DNA of 44,048 nt, taken from the NCBI GenBank assembly GCA_009392515.1, contig VFGE01000049.1:1-44048 (forward strand). Direction: 5' to 3'. The notes under the pieces were generated by a model, which saw nothing but the letters and a program-made list of their open reading frames with translations, did not search any database and was not told where the DNA came from. This stretch comes from SAR202 cluster bacterium (GTDB lineage Bacteria > Chloroflexota > Dehalococcoidia > Lucifugimonadales > UBA6952). The translations under genes were made by a program, and so were the position numbers. Below are positions 3,237 through 12,523 of this stretch, piece by piece; position 1 is the first letter of the stretch; the number at the start of each line of letters is the position of its first letter.

Positions 3237-4474
3237 TAAATTGTTCCATTAGACTTCAATATGGATAAATTTTTTACAGGAACACCAAGAAATTTGATTA
3301 AAATTTCTTTAGTGTGTTGGCTTAATTTAGGAGCAGGGGTATTTATTCCCCATTCAAGTTTAGAAAAACGAAATGGGGCTCCTGTGTATGTAATTTCACC
3401 TGCTAATTCGTGTTCAGACTTAAAGAAATAAGATCTATGAACTAATTGGGGGTCTAAGAAGAGATCTCCAATTTGGTTTATTGGGGTACACATTACTCCG
3501 TATTCTTGGCATATTTCAAAGACTTCCTGTTTTCGTCTTGGAAGTAACCATTCAAGTAGATATGTTTCAAATTCTTCTTGTTTGGATTCTCTTTTTGCTG
3601 GTATTGACCAATTAGGATCCTTTAACAAATCTTCTTTTCCAATTGCACTGCATAGTCGTCTAAAAAACCTGTCCTCTCCTGAACCAAATACTATATACCC
3701 ATCTTGACATGGGTAGCATCCAGTAGGGTATCTAAGGTCTATTGACCCTCTTTGTAGTAATCTTTTGGTATATTGATCAAATACTGTACGTGTATCAACA
3801 TTGCCAATTTGGGCTTCCATACCAGATATCTTAATTAGATGACCCTTAGAATTGCTATTTAAAGCAAATATAGCCGCCATAGAGGCAGCTGCTGCAGTCG
3901 TCCCTATCTGATATAGAATGACATCAGACCCATACTGTAACGGAGGGCCTTCTGCTATTCCATGCGGTGACATTCTATTGGTTAAGGCAAATGAAATAAA
4001 ATCGTTTGTTTCATATTCTGAATATGGTCCATAATCACCAAATGGAGTAATATGGGTAATAATTAAACTTGAATTTAATTCTTGCAGTATATTTAGCGAT
4101 AATCCTAGTTTTGTTAAAAAGCTTGACGGTTTATCAATAACTAGAAGGTCGCACTTTTTAATCAATTCAATAAATATAGCTTTTCCATCCATTGTATTTA
4201 AATTTAAAGTGATACTTTTTTTGTTAGTATTTAAATTAAGATACAATCCACTTGTTTCACAATTAGGTATGTTTTTTGGAAAAGGTCCAGACTTTCTACT
4301 TGAATCACCTTGTAAAGGTTCAATTTTTATTACATTTGCCCCATAATCGGCAAATAATTTTGTGCAATAAGGTGCAGATATATAATCTCCAATTTCTAAT
4401 ATTATTAGATCTTCAAAATTTGTTGTGTTGTTAGATTCTCTCATTACTACTGTATTTTTATATTTTGATATCAT
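3236..4474 (-). CDS. Family III CoA-transferase homologue lacking the catalytic Asp
   Basis: The 412-residue protein has the family III hallmarks: ADYGANVIKIEPLQGD near residues 42-57, NTNKKSITLNL near 82-92, and a C-terminal HTKEILIKFLG. At the position of the catalytic Asp the alignment gives Leu187 in a GSDVILYQIG stretch, and the usual GTGQ is degenerate (SKGH). It therefore probably cannot form the acyl-enzyme intermediate alone and likely acts as the structural or substrate-binding partner of the coupled downstream transferase. No clear ribosome site precedes the ATG at 4474; Met11 is an alternative start. Confidence 0.8.
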   Translation of the reverse strand: MISKYKNTVVMRESNNTTNFEDLIILEIGDYISAPYCTKLFADYGANVIKIEPLQGDSSRKSGPFPKNIPNCETSGLYLNLNTNKKSITLNLNTMDGKAIFIELIKKCDLLVIDKPSSFLTKLGLSLNILQELNSSLIITHITPFGDYGPYSEYETNDFISFALTNRMSPHGIAEGPPLQYGSDVILYQIGTTAAAASMAAIFALNSNSKGHLIKISGMEAQIGNVDTRTVFDQYTKRLLQRGSIDLRYPTGCYPCQDGYIVFGSGEDRFFRRLCSAIGKEDLLKDPNWSIPAKRESKQEEFETYLLEWLLPRRKQEVFEICQEYGVMCTPINQIGDLFLDPQLVHRSYFFKSEHELAGEITYTGAPFRFSKLEWGINTPAPKLSQHTKEILIKFLGVPVKNLSILKSNGTI

Positions 4475-4612
4475 TAGAAAATTCTAATTGTTATCGGTCA
4501 AGTACATAAATTAGCATAAAATGCCAATTATCTAGATAGTATGACTTATTATTCATAAACTAACTCCTTTTTGATAAGTGTGGTATATTTTACGTAATTT
4601 ATTGGAGGTAAA
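4475..4612. promoter_or_regulatory. Divergent gap with a possible extended -10 promoter for the MscS gene
   Basis: The 138-base AT-rich gap separates divergently transcribed genes. TGG plus TATATT at 4581-4589 resembles an extended -10 element on the plus strand, about 20 bases ahead of the MscS start. A TTGGAGG ribosome site lies at 4602-4608. No convincing -35 box was seen. Confidence 0.3.
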
Positions 4613-5680
4613 ATGAATATTGATTTACTGACGAAAATTTCTATAACAGAAGCTATTACTGCTTTGGTAATACTTTTTCTGGGTTTCATAATTGCACTCA
4701 TAACATATTTTGTATTTAGAAGGATACGAAATAACTTAAAAGAAAATAACCAACATCAACTTGCTTCAGTAATATCCGATTTTGACACAATAGTCATACT
4801 AACTATTGTATTTGTCTTTATTTATTTAGGATTGCTTTCAATTAATGAATTGCGTGACGGCATTTCACAATTCAACCAAGTATTTACGATTCTTCTCGTC
4901 CTCCTTGTTTCCTATTCACTTATTAAAGCGAAAAACCATTTATTAGAATGGTATTCAGAGAAAATTAATTATGACAACTCTCCACAGACTAAAGTTGTTA
5001 AAACTTTAATTCCTACTGCTCATTGGCTATTTACTTTAATAATAGTTTCGTTAGCAATTCTTATAAATCTAGACATAATAGGAATTTCTATAGCACCTCT
5101 TATTGCAGGTTTGGGTATAGGAGGTTTAGCAGTAGCATTAGCTTTACAAGGAACTCTTAGTAATTTTTTTGCAGGAGTTAATGTTTTGACTGATGGGAGT
5201 ATACGAGTTGGTGATTATGTGGAACTCTCAGAGGGTTTTTCAGGAATTGTTACCGGCATAGGTTGGAGAACTACTCGAATTAGAACACTGGGCAACAATA
5301 CAGTAATTTTGCCTAACAATCGGTTAGCAGATACTATCGCTACAAACTATAGTTTTCCATATGATGAGATGTCTGTCTATTTAAGAATAGGTGTTGGCTA
5401 TTTTGAAGATTTAGCATATGTAGAAAACGTTGTTGTAGAGGTTGCCAAAGAAGTTTTGTTAAATACTGAAGGGGCAGTTTCTAATTATAATCCCACAGTT
5501 TGGTATGAAGAATTCGGTGATGATAATATAAATTTCTGGGCAGTTTTGCGAGCAAAAGGATATTTCGAATCATGGGCTGTAAAACATGAATTTATCAAAG
5601 CAATATCCGAAAGATTTAAAAAAGAAAACATCGAGATATCTTTCCATAACACTAATATTTTTATGAGAGACAAATCATAA
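4613..5680 (+). CDS. MscS-family small-conductance mechanosensitive channel
   Basis: The 355-residue protein has several N-terminal membrane helices. These are followed by the Gly/Ala-rich pore helix (GLGIGGLAVALALQGTLSNF, about residues 167-186), diagnostic of MscS channels, and the beta domain with VGDYVELSEGFSGIVTGIGW and ILPNNRLADT. The C-terminal region matches the alpha/beta cytoplasmic cage. It would release osmolytes on hypo-osmotic shock at the cytoplasmic membrane. Its TAA is followed one base later by the TTG of a DoxX-like gene, so the two are probably cotranscribed. A strong GGAGG ribosome site precedes the ATG. Confidence 0.92.
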   Translation: MNIDLLTKISITEAITALVILFLGFIIALITYFVFRRIRNNLKENNQHQLASVISDFDTIVILTIVFVFIYLGLLSINELRDGISQFNQVFTILLVLLVSYSLIKAKNHLLEWYSEKINYDNSPQTKVVKTLIPTAHWLFTLIIVSLAILINLDIIGISIAPLIAGLGIGGLAVALALQGTLSNFFAGVNVLTDGSIRVGDYVELSEGFSGIVTGIGWRTTRIRTLGNNTVILPNNRLADTIATNYSFPYDEMSVYLRIGVGYFEDLAYVENVVVEVAKEVLLNTEGAVSNYNPTVWYEEFGDDNINFWAVLRAKGYFESWAVKHEFIKAISERFKKENIEISFHNTNIFMRDKS

Positions 5681-5681
5681 A

Positions 5682-6131
5682 TTGAATTATGTTACTTCCT
5701 CAAATTTTTTATGGTTAATTAAAAATACTATTACATTAGTTTATGGTGGTTGGTTTATATACATAGGTATACAACATTTTGTAGACCCTGAATGGTTTGA
5801 GCCTATTGTGCCAGTTTTCCTAGGATACCCAAAATTCTGGGTTTTATTCAGTGGATTAATTGAGATCCTATTAGGGGCGTTTTTAATAATTCCTTTCACA
5901 CGAAAAATTTCAGGAGTTTGTTTAGTAATATTTTTAATAGTTATATATATCGCTAATATTAATATGTGGATATTTGATATACCTATTGACGGGAATAAAC
6001 TTACGACACAGGGACACATAATACGTGGGTTTGCACAAATTTTGTTAATTACTATTGCTTTATATATAGTTGAATTTAATCCAATAAATTATTTACGTTT
6101 AAAACTTAGAATAAGACAAATTCTTAGATAA
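5682..6131 (+). CDS. DoxX-like four-helix membrane protein
   Basis: The 149-residue protein has four hydrophobic segments and the DoxX-type pattern: IGIQHFVDPEWFEPIVPVFL, then SGLIEILLGAFLIIP and a basic loop before the third helix. DoxX-like proteins are small quinone-linked or redox-associated membrane proteins of diverse role; no specific activity can be assigned. The frame opens with TTG one base after the MscS stop, and no ATG suits the start better, so it probably depends on coupling to the upstream gene. Confidence 0.7.
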   Translation: MNYVTSSNFLWLIKNTITLVYGGWFIYIGIQHFVDPEWFEPIVPVFLGYPKFWVLFSGLIEILLGAFLIIPFTRKISGVCLVIFLIVIYIANINMWIFDIPIDGNKLTTQGHIIRGFAQILLITIALYIVEFNPINYLRLKLRIRQILR

Positions 6132-6194
6132 ATAGAAATAGTAGTGAAAATATACTCATATTTAATTCTCTATAGACATTTGGGGTTTTTCCTA

Positions 6195-6223
6195 TTGACA
6201 ATATACTCACTCAACTGTATCGT
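6195..6223 (+). promoter_or_regulatory. Probable sigma-70-type promoter for the substrate-binding lipoprotein
   Basis: TTGACA at 6195-6200 is a perfect -35 box. With a 17-base spacer it is followed by TATCGT at 6218-6223, a fair -10. It lies about 100 bases upstream of the lipoprotein start, which fits a highly expressed periplasmic-type binding protein. Confidence 0.5.
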
Positions 6224-6325
6224 TTGTTGTTAATGTGATAAGAACATAGGTTAACATGCAATAGGTATGTTCAGCCTTTATTTAGCATTTATTATTTATG
6301 TGTGTTATTAATGGGAGGTTTTGTT

Positions 6326-8158
6326 ATGACAAACAAGTTTACCAAACTTATGACCCTTGGTTGTATGGTTCTCTTGGTATCAGGCTTGTCAATCTCTTGT
6401 GGTGGAGATGATGATTCATCTTCAACTGCAAGTACATCGACAGCAAGTACCAGTACGAGTACTGCAAGCACTAGTACTGCAAGTACCGCAACAACTACTG
6501 AGGCATCGACAGCAACTAACGTTGTTACAGGTATCGCTGCTTACAGCGAAGGTCAAAAAGGTGAAGTAGCAAAAGCAACACCAGTAACTGTGGATAAAAG
6601 TTTATTTACATCAATCAAACGTGGTGGAATTTTGAACCAAGCTCACAGAAGAAGCCCTCGATACTTTAGACAGGACCTTTCTACTGCTAGTGATGAAACT
6701 GCAGCTTCTATGCCTATATTTAACGGATTATTATGGACTGCACCACCAACTCATACCCAGGTTACAGGCGACATCGCTAAAGACTGGACTATTATGAATG
6801 CTGGTAAGACATATATCTTCGATCTTCATGAAAATATTGTTAACCACAATGGTAACAAATTTGATTCTGAGGACGTTAAATTTACACTTGAATGGCTTGG
6901 TGCTGAATCAGATAACCGACCTCCACACTCAAGCGTATCAACAGGTGGGGAATCTATTTTTAAAGATATAAGAACAAACGGTCCAAATCAGGTAATTATT
7001 GATTTGGTAGAAGCAGATTCTGTTTTCTTCCCACAATTAGGTCAACGTTACATGAATATGCAGACTCAGGCTGACTTCGATGAAGAAGGCTCTAAAGATG
7101 CACCAGTTGGAACTGGTCCTTATGCTATGACTAGCCATGTACCTGGTGAAAAGATTGAATATAGGAAACACAGTGACTACTTTAAAGCTGGTCTTCCATA
7201 TCTTGACGGAATAGATACATTCATTATTCGTGACCCAACCCCTCGATTTGCTGCATTCGAAGCAAAACGACTTGATATTATCTTGATGGGTAGTAGTCAT
7301 GGTTTGTATTCAGATATTGCGACTGCTATGGAAAAACGACATCAAGGTGAAGTTACTTGGTATGAAGGTCTTCATACTGTAGGTAGAGGTGTCCACTTCA
7401 ACCACAGAAAAGAAGGTCCTTGGTCAGATAAGAGAGTTAGACAAGCTGTTAACTTAGCTATTGATAGAGATGCAATCTGTCAGGCAATCCCAGCTTGTTT
7501 CCCTGGCTATCAATTACCATCAGCAACCTATGGTATTACAGACCGAGCTGCATTGAACGACAAACCTGGTTGGGCTCCTGCAGGTCCTGGTAAGGATGCA
7601 GAAATTGCAGCAGCTAAGAAACTTATGGCTGAAGCTGGATATCCAGATGGATTTGAAGTTGACGCTTTGTGTAGAGACTCAGTTGACTATGCAGAGAGAC
7701 TTTGTCCAGTTGCTGAATTCTTATTACGAGAAACCTTAAATATCCGAGCTACTCTCGATGTTAAAGAAACTGGTGCTTGGAATGAAGCACAACAGCAAAC
7801 AGGTGAATGGATGATGGAATTTGGTTCTGCTAACTCAGCAAACGTTGACCATCCATACAACTGGTTAGAGTACTGGGGATTCTGTGGAGAGGGATTGTTT
7901 GAAAACATCCGTGGTTGGTGTAATGAAGATTATGATCAACTTCTCCGAGACATGAGAAAAGCAACTGAAACAGCTGAACTTAAAGATTTAGCAACTCAGG
8001 CTATAGCAATTCTTGATGAAGAAGTTCCTTCAGCTCATTTATTCTGGCCATCCAGATTCTCTATCCGATGGAATTATGTAATGAATCCTGCTGATGAGAA
8101 AAATGCTGGTCAGTATTCTGCAGCAAGAAGATTTGAAAATCAGTGGCTCAATAAATAA
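6326..8158 (+). CDS. Solute-binding lipoprotein of a peptide/nickel-type ABC transporter (SBP family 5)
   Basis: The protein has about 610 residues. The ATG at 6326 is chosen because GGGAGG lies seven bases upstream; the GTG at 6302 precedes that site. The N-terminus is a lipoprotein signal ending LSISCGG, so the Cys would be lipidated. It is followed by a low-complexity Ala-Ser-Thr linker of about 50 residues (STASTSTSTASTST type), then a family 5 binding domain with FNGLLW, YIFDLHENIVNHNGNKFDSE, VGTGPY and VRQAVNLAIDRDAI. It would capture oligopeptides or related solutes outside the membrane. No permease or ATPase genes are adjacent, so it is an orphan here. A perfect terminator follows it. 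Confidence 0.9.
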   Translation: MTNKFTKLMTLGCMVLLVSGLSISCGGDDDSSSTASTSTASTSTSTASTSTASTATTTEASTATNVVTGIAAYSEGQKGEVAKATPVTVDKSLFTSIKRGGILNQAHRRSPRYFRQDLSTASDETAASMPIFNGLLWTAPPTHTQVTGDIAKDWTIMNAGKTYIFDLHENIVNHNGNKFDSEDVKFTLEWLGAESDNRPPHSSVSTGGESIFKDIRTNGPNQVIIDLVEADSVFFPQLGQRYMNMQTQADFDEEGSKDAPVGTGPYAMTSHVPGEKIEYRKHSDYFKAGLPYLDGIDTFIIRDPTPRFAAFEAKRLDIILMGSSHGLYSDIATAMEKRHQGEVTWYEGLHTVGRGVHFNHRKEGPWSDKRVRQAVNLAIDRDAICQAIPACFPGYQLPSATYGITDRAALNDKPGWAPAGPGKDAEIAAAKKLMAEAGYPDGFEVDALCRDSVDYAERLCPVAEFLLRETLNIRATLDVKETGAWNEAQQQTGEWMMEFGSANSANVDHPYNWLEYWGFCGEGLFENIRGWCNEDYDQLLRDMRKATETAELKDLATQAIAILDEEVPSAHLFWPSRFSIRWNYVMNPADEKNAGQYSAARRFENQWLNK

Positions 8159-10384: not shown

Positions 10385-11410
10385 TTGAATAATTCTACTC
10401 CTAATCTAAATTATGGCTCCATTTTATTTCTCGGCTCAGGTGAAACTGCATCAGCTGGGCGTATATTACATGAGCAACTATTCAAAAAGCTTTCCAAGAA
10501 AAAAGTTAATGTTGCAATTCTCGAAACACCTGCAGGTTTTGAACCTAATTCCAGACAAGTTGCTTTAGAAGTTTCTGATTTTTTTATTGAAAAACTTCAA
10601 AATTATCACCCTGATGTAAAAATAATCCCTGCTAGAAGGCGCGATGGTGACTTTAGTACCAATTCAGAAGAAATAATTAGTGATATCAAAACTGCTGATC
10701 ATATATACCTAGGTGCTGGTAGCCCTACGTATTTAGTTAAACATCTAGAAAATACACTCGCTTTAGAAAATCTTCATAACCAACATCAAAATGGTTCATC
10801 GATTTGTTTGACTAGCGCTTCTTCAATAGCTTTTGGGAAATGGTCTTTACCTGTTTATGAAATTTTCAAAGTTGGTTTGGATTTGTACTGGCAACAAGGT
10901 TTAGATTTTTTTTCTAGATTTAACCTGGATTTATCAATAATCCCTCATTGGAACAATAATGATGGTGGCAAAAAAATTGATACTAGCAGATGTTATTTAG
11001 GTAAAGAAAGAGTGGATAAACTTTTAAATATGCTTCCTATAGAATCAGTTGTGCTAGGGATTGATGAGCATACTGGTTTACTTTTAGACTTTTCTAAACA
11101 AACTGTCAATGTAGTTGGAAAAGGATCTGTTCATCTTCTACAAGCTGGAAATGAAAAAATATATAGAAATGGCGATGAATTTCAATTACAAGATTTAGGT
11201 AATTTTATTATGCCTGAAAACAAATCCTCTGTAATAAACAATCACCTAGTAAAGGAAATTCCACAAAATATTATTGAATTAGCAGAAATGCGATTACAAT
11301 CAAGGAAAAATAAAGAATGGGATCAAGCCGATAGATTAAGAATAAAACTTTCTGAGCTTGGGTATCAAATAGAAGATAATAATGATGGATACAGTGTATC
11401 AAAAATATGA
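10385..11410 (+). CDS. Peptidase S51/GATase1-like protein with a CysRS-type C-terminal tail
   Basis: The 341-residue protein opens with TTG. Residues ~10-280 resemble the S51 (dipeptidase E/cyanophycinase) class-I-amidotransferase-like fold: ILFLGSGETASAGR, AILETPAGFEPNS, IYLGAGSPTYL, and a nucleophile elbow SICLTSASSIAFG with Ser144. The last ~45 residues (from about 297) read AEMRLQSRKNKEWDQADRLR followed by a Gly-containing helix end. This closely matches the C-terminal tail of cysteinyl-tRNA synthetase (R..AR..K.W..AD.IR..L...G). The fusion is notable. Its stop overlaps the ATG of the first thioredoxin-like selenoprotein (ATGA), so the three genes form one unit. Whether it has peptidase activity is unknown. 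Confidence 0.75.
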   Translation: MNNSTPNLNYGSILFLGSGETASAGRILHEQLFKKLSKKKVNVAILETPAGFEPNSRQVALEVSDFFIEKLQNYHPDVKIIPARRRDGDFSTNSEEIISDIKTADHIYLGAGSPTYLVKHLENTLALENLHNQHQNGSSICLTSASSIAFGKWSLPVYEIFKVGLDLYWQQGLDFFSRFNLDLSIIPHWNNNDGGKKIDTSRCYLGKERVDKLLNMLPIESVVLGIDEHTGLLLDFSKQTVNVVGKGSVHLLQAGNEKIYRNGDEFQLQDLGNFIMPENKSSVINNHLVKEIPQNIIELAEMRLQSRKNKEWDQADRLRIKLSELGYQIEDNNDGYSVSKI

Positions 11411-11934
11411 GATATATATATAAAATGTGGTATTTATTTAATGGATTTTCATTTTTGTGGGCATTGACGATAGCTATATTATTCTTTGGGGTAATTTTTT
11501 ATAGATATATACCTCGTCCACAATTTGTCATATTATTTACTGTATTAATTGCCAGTGTTTTTATTCTTTCACAATTTTTATATGCCTCACGACAAACGGC
11601 TGGAATAAATTCATATGCAAATGCTATTGAGGAAATACAAACCAAAGATTTTAACTTGGTATTTTTATATTCAAATTACTGAATTGGTTGCAAAACTGCA
11701 AAGCCGATCGTGGATCGGCTAGAGAAAGATTTAGAGAATGAAATTAATGTAATTAGACTAGATGTGATGACTGAAGCAGGCCGAGATTTCAGAGAGGAAT
11801 TCTCTGTTCGTGTCACACCTGGATTTGTCTTAGTTAATAATGAAAATAAAGAGTTATGGCAGTTTATTGGAATTCCAAATTCTAAAACATTTATAGAACG
11901 AATCAAGAAAGAAATAAAGGATACAAATGGATAG
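11407..11934 (+). CDS. Membrane-anchored thioredoxin-like protein with UxxC motif (probable selenoprotein)
   Basis: Reading the in-frame TGA at 11680-11682 as selenocysteine gives one 175-residue protein. It has two membrane helices (about residues 8-32 and 39-60), then a thioredoxin fold: strand LVFLYSNY, redox motif U92-I-G-C95, helix KTAKPIVDRLEKDL, strand INVIRLDV, cis-Pro loop VTPGFVLV, and a C-terminal helix. U92 sits exactly at the first Cys of a CxxC. Coding and family similarity continue without a break after the TGA, and a hairpin suitable as a bacterial SECIS lies directly downstream. An ordinary gene caller would split this into two pieces. ATGA overlap with the upstream gene and an 8-base overlap with the downstream gene indicate an operon. 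It faces the cell exterior or membrane surface and is likely a thiol-disulfide or peroxide-linked reductase. Confidence 0.85.
11688..11720 (+). promoter_or_regulatory. SECIS-like double hairpin after the TGA of the first Trx selenoprotein
   Basis: Immediately after the TGA at 11680-11682 lie two adjacent stems. The first is TTGCA/TGCAA with an AAAC loop (11688-11701). The second is a perfect 8-base-pair stem AGCCGATC/GATCGGCT with loop GTG (11702-11720). The GU of that loop starts 28 bases after the TGA, within the window used by bacterial SelB-binding SECIS elements, which need a G(U) in the apical loop. The element lies within the coding sequence. Confidence 0.7.
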
Positions 11935-12523
11935 ATTAACTACACTTCTTTCATCGAATAAAATAACAAGAGTGTTTCTTCTATTCACTATACTATTAAT
12001 AGCCATTATTGGTTGTGGAGAAGACCAAAATTCAGATATTGCATTAGATGAATCAGAGTATGACGTTAAATATGATAACAAAGATTTATTGGTAAAATCT
12101 AACGTTGAAGAAACCGCTACTAGCAAAAATAATACAAAAGAATCGGAACCTACAAATAATCCTAAAGAATTTATTAATACTGAACTTCAAGAATCGTTAA
12201 ACTCTAATAACTATTCAAAAGAAAATGAAGAAAAAGATGTAGATACTGTCTATAATTTAAGTTTAGTTTATCTATATTCAGACTACTGAATTGGTTGCAA
12301 AAATGCAAAGCCGATCGTGGATCAGCTAGAGATTGAACTAGACCCTCAGATTGATATCAAAAGGATTGATATTCTTACTGAATATGGTAATGAATTTAGT
12401 AACGAATACTCATTGAGTACACCCGGGTTTATATTACTGAATAATTCAAATAAAGAATTATTTAGATTTATAGGGGTGCCCAATAAGTCAAAATTTGCAG
12501 AGCAATTAAAGGAATATATCTAA
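11927..12523 (+). CDS. Lipoprotein thioredoxin-like protein with UxxC motif (probable selenoprotein)
   Basis: Decoding the in-frame TGA at 12287-12289 as selenocysteine gives 198 residues. A lipoprotein signal ends LIAIIGC with Cys30 as the lipidation site. A ~80-residue Asn/Glu/Ser/Lys-rich linker is followed by a thioredoxin domain: LSLVYLYSDY, U121-I-G-C124, KNAKPIVDQLEIEL, IDIKRIDIL, cis-Pro STPGFILL. It is a paralogue of the preceding protein with a different membrane tether (lipid rather than two helices). The ~58 bases around the TGA are almost identical in the two genes, whereas the flanks have diverged. The start overlaps the previous gene by 8 bases. An exported reductase role is an inference. 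Confidence 0.85.
12295..12327 (+). promoter_or_regulatory. SECIS-like double hairpin after the TGA of the second Trx selenoprotein
   Basis: The layout is the same as in the first copy: TTGCA/TGCAA with an AAAA loop, then AGCCGATC-GTG-GATCAGCT with a single C/A mismatch. The apical GTG is at 12317-12319, again 28 bases after the TGA. Conservation between the two copies is far higher here than in the rest of the genes, arguing for RNA-level constraint or recent gene conversion. Confidence 0.65.

Follow-up and report, generated by a model that had tools for sequence, protein, structure and literature searches.

Predicted membrane-anchored selenocysteine thioredoxins in a SAR202 bacterium: a tandem gene pair from a family found across the Chloroflexota

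Two overlapping genes of a SAR202 cluster bacterium each encode a thioredoxin fold interrupted by one in-frame TGA at the first position of the active-site motif, and we regard it as very probable, judging from sequence comparison, that their products are anchored extracytoplasmic thioredoxins into which selenocysteine (Sec) is inserted at that codon. One protein is predicted to be held by two membrane helices and the other by a lipid anchor, and their likely role is in extracytoplasmic thiol/disulfide exchange. The genes lie in a contig stretch of 44,048 nucleotides, here called the window; the features discussed below are collected in Table 1.

Table 1. Features of the selenoprotein locus, in window coordinates
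Feature	Position	Strand	Description
Upstream ORF	10385..11410	+	Likely in the same operon; peptidase S51-like match slightly under the Pfam cut-off
Gene 1	11407..11934	+	175 aa; two predicted N-terminal transmembrane helices and thioredoxin domain, predicted Sec 92; from read-through translation, Pfam Thioredoxin and AlphaFold2
Transmembrane helices, gene 1 (predicted)	11449..11577	+	Cores at about residues 15-31 and 41-57 by hydropathy; model helices 15-34 and 38-62
In-frame TGA, gene 1	11680..11682	+	Predicted Sec 92, YSNY-U-IGC; homologues align Cys there
Candidate SECIS hairpin 1	11702..11720	+	8 bp stem, apical loop GUG 11710-11712, 27 nt from TGA to loop
AAAGGA, Shine-Dalgarno-like	11916..11921	+	Within the end of gene 1, 5 nt 5' of the gene 2 ATG; read from the sequence
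Gene 2	11927..12523	+	198 aa; predicted lipoprotein signal, polar linker of ~80 residues, thioredoxin domain, predicted Sec 121
Lipobox I-I-G-C(30), gene 2	12005..12016	+	From the sequence; orthologue has I-L-G-C
In-frame TGA, gene 2	12287..12289	+	Predicted Sec 121, YSDY-U-IGC; sister species retains TGA
Candidate SECIS hairpin 2	12309..12327	+	Stem of hairpin 1 with one C.A mismatch (7 pairs), loop GUG 12317-12319

Two thioredoxin frames that cross a TGA

The original prediction, made from the letters of the window, described two overlapping thioredoxin-fold genes each with an in-frame TGA in a U-I-G-C motif, and both the frames and the TGA positions were confirmed. Either frame contains a single internal TGA. 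Genes 1 and 2 have 8 nt in common, and the ATG of gene 1 shares 4 nt with the stop of the ORF before it (ATGA at 11407); given these overlaps, the two genes appear to close an operon. The upstream ORF also adjoins the gene 1 orthologue in a sister species, the closest named relative (a Dehalococcoidia MAG from Station ALOHA, JAKUQA010000007.1; gene 1 identity 92%). This relationship makes it very probable that the window comes from a marine member of the Chloroflexota. By eye, the C-terminal tail of this ORF (10385-11410) resembles the end of a cysteinyl-tRNA synthetase.

A six-frame scan of the 44 kb for TGA codons flanked on both sides by more than 65 open codons in the same frame returned exactly two, the sites in genes 1 and 2, so two such read-through frames are not a chance occurrence. 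Thioredoxin similarity had been said to continue beyond the TGA in frame; indeed, the match to the Pfam Thioredoxin family (PF00085) crosses the TGA in both genes, scoring 36.2 bits for gene 1 and 28.1 bits for gene 2 against a gathering score of 23.5, and the two proteins share 47% identity over 110 aa across it. The thioredoxin equivalog TIGR01068, of the cytosolic TrxA type, gave 39.3 and 36.4 bits, under its curated cut-off of 96.8; no NCBIfam model reached its cut-off for either protein, and the TlpA and Redoxin families of Pfam were not among their matches.

Comparison with the sister species gave dN/dS values for gene 1 of 0.033/0.587 before the TGA (about 0.06) and 0.045/0.315 after it (0.14), and purifying selection evidently acts on both sides of this codon. 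The corresponding values for gene 2 were 0.352/0.592 before the TGA, in the part with the fast-evolving linker, and 0.101/0.614 after it.

The proposed attachment of one protein by two helices and of the other as a lipoprotein was likewise borne out. The helices of gene 1 are supported by hydropathy over 37 family members and by an AlphaFold2 model (mean pLDDT 85), which combines a pair of long helices with a full thioredoxin fold and places the Sec where helix 1 of the thioredoxin domain begins; the best PDB matches of the model are thioredoxins or thioredoxin fusions. Over the same 37 members, K+R residues make up a fraction of 0.016 of the N-tail, 0.277 of the interhelical loop and 0.115 of the part that follows helix 2, with net charges of -4, +70 and -16, respectively. 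By the positive-inside rule the positively charged loop should therefore be cytoplasmic and the N terminus and thioredoxin domain outside, and the thioredoxin domain of gene 1 is thus predicted to be extracytoplasmic. Gene 2 starts with a K/R-containing N terminus followed by a hydrophobic stretch and IIGC30, as expected of a lipoprotein; this lipobox and the linker of ~80 polar residues therefore suggest that its thioredoxin domain, too, lies outside.

Selenocysteine machinery and candidate SECIS elements

The source assembly (1.55 Mb, 98% complete) was searched for the genes of selenocysteine insertion that the original prediction had named as a check, and all were found: tRNA-Sec with anticodon TCA (61.2 bits), selA (515.4 bits), selB (337.9 bits) and selD (354.2 bits), each exceeding its curated cut-off. 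By this gene content, the genome decodes selenocysteine. The selD gene (genome G000, contig C37, locus L018) holds its own in-frame TGA at about 1531-1533, read CAG-U-AAK and followed downstream by a hairpin, TCCAAG-TGA-CTTGGA, with a UGA loop; as read from the sequence, SelD is thus itself a selenoprotein in this genome.

A candidate SECIS hairpin starts 19 bases 3' of the TGA in both genes. The published bacterial SECIS model has a stem of 4-16 bp, a distance of 16-37 nt from the UGA and a minimum free energy of -7.5 kcal/mol or lower (PMC13188914, Fig. 2A). The copy in gene 1 fits with its GUG loop 27 nt from the UGA and its 8 bp stem; it folds at -12.2 kcal/mol alone, and the 54-nt window around it at -15.9 kcal/mol (z -3.3 against codon-shuffled controls). 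The copy in gene 2 differs from the model (PMC13188914) in that its stem has a mismatch and the lone hairpin, at -6.0 kcal/mol, falls short of the limit of -7.5; its 54-nt window reaches -9.6 kcal/mol, but the lowest-energy fold there is a different structure. Measured against codon-shuffled controls, single-sequence folding was clearly significant for copy 1 only and not for most others, so the case for SECIS elements rests on covariation. An Rfam search over the locus gave chance matches only, an uninformative outcome given that, to our knowledge, Rfam lacks a general model for the SECIS of bacteria.

Among 16 sequences with the Sec form, 87.5% of stem cells are paired and 19 double-sided changes occur. 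Their covariation score of 0.385 compares with 0.145 in shuffles and was reached by none of 500, and sliding the stem partner by one base lowers pairing to 43% or less. The consensus energy from RNAalifold is weak (-1.51). Seven Cys forms pair at 51.8% of stem positions, no better than shuffles. In a larger set of 46 dereplicated Sec forms of the phylum compared with 11 Cys forms, the pair between the third base of a Pro codon and the first base four codons on (G-C, U-A or C-G) is kept in 45 of the 46 Sec forms and in two of the 11 Cys forms. Lys AAG is combined with C-first rather than T-first Leu codons 18:1, whereas Lys AAA prefers T-first over C-first ones 9:2, which, at the level of the codons, is purely synonymous covariation. 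The covariation counts ignore phylogeny, which leaves the p-values too optimistic, although the changes do recur in distant families.

Two other explanations of the interrupted frames were weighed against selenocysteine insertion. Were TGA an ordinary amino acid codon in this organism, for example Trp, read-through would also yield full proteins; yet other ORFs of the window end in TGA and long frames open on both sides occur at just two TGAs, which upholds the earlier view that TGA is a stop elsewhere and recoding unlikely. The homologue alignment, with Cys and never Trp at the site, refutes a code change, and the genome holds a dedicated tRNA-Sec with selA, selB and selD, so that we give this explanation practically no credence. 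That the TGAs are true stops, leaving broken genes or short N-terminal products with separate C-terminal halves, is hardly more credible. Gene-calling software would break both genes at that point, and the GTG codons at 11710 and 12317, proposed beforehand as the starts of the second halves, do exist; these candidate starts, however, are the apical loops of the two hairpins and fall inside helix 1 of the thioredoxin fold. Moreover, both TGAs are kept in the sister species, dN/dS is low on both sides of the one in gene 1, TGA occupies exactly this column across dozens of genomes, and covariation in the hairpin is restricted to Sec forms.

A different objection concerns the RNA. Within the window genome, the DNA of genes 1 and 2 is 95% identical over the TGA and the 13 codons next to it, as against 56% and 62% in the flanks, a pattern that recent gene conversion could produce in place of selection on RNA. 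In the sister species, however, identity there is 83%, with four synonymous differences, and the stem geometry is still kept; compensatory changes also keep the same stem across the phylum. We consider gene conversion an improbable explanation, though a far more serious one than a code change or true stops, and selection on a SECIS hairpin remains our preferred reading.

Distribution of the family and recurrent tandem duplication

Relatives of gene 1 were found in 22 of 393 genomes of the class and in 41 of 400 genomes of the phylum, and relatives retrieved with gene 2 as query in 51 of 250 genomes of the order. The active-site position in the class set of 22 is TGA in 14 genomes (the present one included) and Cys in eight. 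The replacement of TGA by Cys had been suggested as a check, and homologues ending at the TGA had been set beforehand as the refuting observation; none ends there, and all run through with TGA or Cys. Ser89, Sec/Cys92, Cys95 and cis-Pro138 are invariant in the family alignment. Lipoprotein copies and fragments left aside, members have in common a short N-terminal motif, N-Q/H-Y/N-S (variants occur), two membrane helices and a thioredoxin domain. Where helix 1 ends on the outer side, Sec and Cys forms alike carry an almost invariant N-x-x-S motif (e.g. window 11440-11451).

SelA scored above cut-off in 12 of the 13 other class genomes with a Sec form, the remaining one being only 71% complete, and it is absent from two of the eight with a Cys form. 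One Cys form (locus L064 of genome G374, about 5999-6475, - strand) contains an in-frame TAG, which we considered as a second recoding and rejected: the usual residue there is Glu and the position is away from the active site. This TAG is likely a point mutation or a sequencing error.

When 21 family members were compared with NCBIfam, the matches were to general thioredoxin-type models; the TsoB selenoprotein model matched two of the 21 weakly and the TlpA model one, also weakly. No family library searched describes the membrane family of gene 1, which is found across the phylum.

Genes 1 and 2 and their sister-species orthologues form one clade (support 100/99), and in the sister species the gene 2 orthologue adjoins that of gene 1. 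Two copies occur only in this genus among the 250 order genomes at the threshold used, and the lipoprotein paralogue is confined to this genus among the genomes searched. From these sequences, gene 2 is best explained by a tandem duplication within this lineage in which a lipid anchor replaced the two helices. A second tandem case comes from a different family of this phylum, f144 (loci L104, L105, L108 and L109; genomes G664, G865, G625 and G699). There the pair consists of two adjacent two-helix genes, the first with UxxC and the second with UxxS and the TGA kept; with UxxS, the resolving Cys is gone from the second copy. The copies of f144 form a clade of their own (support 100/99), and since this case is separate, tandem pairing arose at least twice. 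At a further locus (L119 of genome G716, about 4210-4922) a Cys thioredoxin gene with CGPC directly adjoins a Sec form, possibly a third kind of pairing.

Predicted function and relation to known systems

In the mechanism that we propose, both selenoprotein genes would be transcribed in one operon, each TGA being followed by its SECIS hairpin, through which SelB would insert Sec from the tRNA-Sec made by SelA and SelD. The products would be thioredoxin-fold oxidoreductases with a U-I-G-C active site, acting at the outer face of the cytoplasmic membrane, that of gene 1 tethered by its two helices and that of gene 2 lipid-anchored on a long flexible linker. The selenolate would attack disulfides or oxidised thiols of envelope proteins, and Cys95 of gene 1 or Cys124 of gene 2 would resolve the mixed selenosulfide. 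Helix-anchored and lipid-anchored forms would differ in reach, and might share the work between near and far.

That the proteins work in the reducing direction seems probable, with less confidence than we place in Sec insertion and anchoring. The genome encodes a CcdA-like protein (34 bits, NPCGF motif) and no VKOR was found in it, a combination that suits reduction. The rival reading, that they are oxidases or isomerases like DsbA and DsbC or belong to a peroxidase/reductase module and are not general reducing thioredoxins, would accord with the extracytoplasmic location common to Dsb proteins, and a comparison of 20 loci of the family showed no conserved neighbour: no reductant gene regularly adjoins it and no partner is indicated. 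It would also accord with the distribution of CcdA, which found no support as universal electron donor: few family-positive genomes of the order have CcdA-type proteins, no oftener than negative ones, and CcdA does not track the family. Against the rival stand the absence of VKOR from the genome, on which ground we rejected VKOR-driven oxidation, and the sequence and fold, which are nearest to reducing thioredoxins and not to DsbA. Sec is, moreover, generally chosen for reducing steps. We therefore hold the oxidase or isomerase reading to be unlikely, if the least unlikely of the alternatives considered, and favour reducing thioredoxins.

ResA, CcmG and TlpA are also thioredoxin-fold proteins anchored at the outer face of the cytoplasmic membrane and possibly reduced through CcdA. 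The present proteins share with them the outer-face anchor, the thioredoxin fold and possible reduction by CcdA; in contrast, gene 1 has two N-terminal helices, not one, Sec takes the place of Cys, both proteins are nearer the PF00085 thioredoxin than the TlpA and ResA families, and cytochrome c maturation genes are absent among the immediate neighbours here.

Selenoprotein thioredoxins with UxxC (PF00085) are established, with examples from the Sargasso Sea and from Deltaproteobacteria and Treponema (PMC1088965, PMC1794560, PMC13188914). They have in common with the present pair the fold, Sec as the first residue of CxxC, Cys homologues and a downstream SECIS, but the listings in these papers leave unmentioned a membrane or lipid anchor, a tandem pair and a Chloroflexota-wide subfamily, and the domain here is predicted to be extracytoplasmic. 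Operons with several adjacent selenoprotein genes are also known (grdA-grdB, prdB-prdC, frhA-frhD-hdrA, SAO and Tso; PMC13188914); those pair unlike proteins of one pathway, whereas the two genes here are thioredoxin paralogues that differ in their anchors. For the phylum, a survey of 2006 had listed no more than three selenoproteins (PMC1794560), and a 2026 selenoproteome review lists thioredoxin UxxC and does not mention Chloroflexota. Our literature search returned no paper joining selenoproteins with SAR202, and those joining selenoproteins with Dehalococcoidia dealt, by their titles and abstracts, with other topics. The original claim that such a pair is undescribed must accordingly be narrowed: UxxC Sec thioredoxins as such are established, while there appears to be no earlier description of the anchored family that spans the phylum, of its lipoprotein form or of the repeated pairing in tandem.

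As a tentative suggestion, held with rather less than even confidence, uncatalogued phylum-wide extracytoplasmic selenothioredoxins that were tandemly duplicated at least twice may form two-component selenol relays: a transmembrane/lipoprotein pair in one case and a UxxC/UxxS pair in the other, in which one partner would be resolved by an outside thiol, perhaps that of the other partner. Because tandem pairing recurs and one lineage lacks the resolving Cys in its second copy, the idea of a relay lends itself to direct testing, and the segments of TGA and hairpin are testable natural SECIS variants that include synonymous compensatory pairs. The hairpins, the wide distribution and the independent second pairing go beyond what was originally predicted. 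Gene callers are expected to split each member in two at the TGA, and annotations of many marine Chloroflexota genomes may consequently be wrong for this family. Taken together, the findings extend the selenoprotein thioredoxins by a widespread branch, membrane-anchored and found in Chloroflexota, and imply that selenium-dependent redox chemistry may take place at the cell surface of ocean bacteria.
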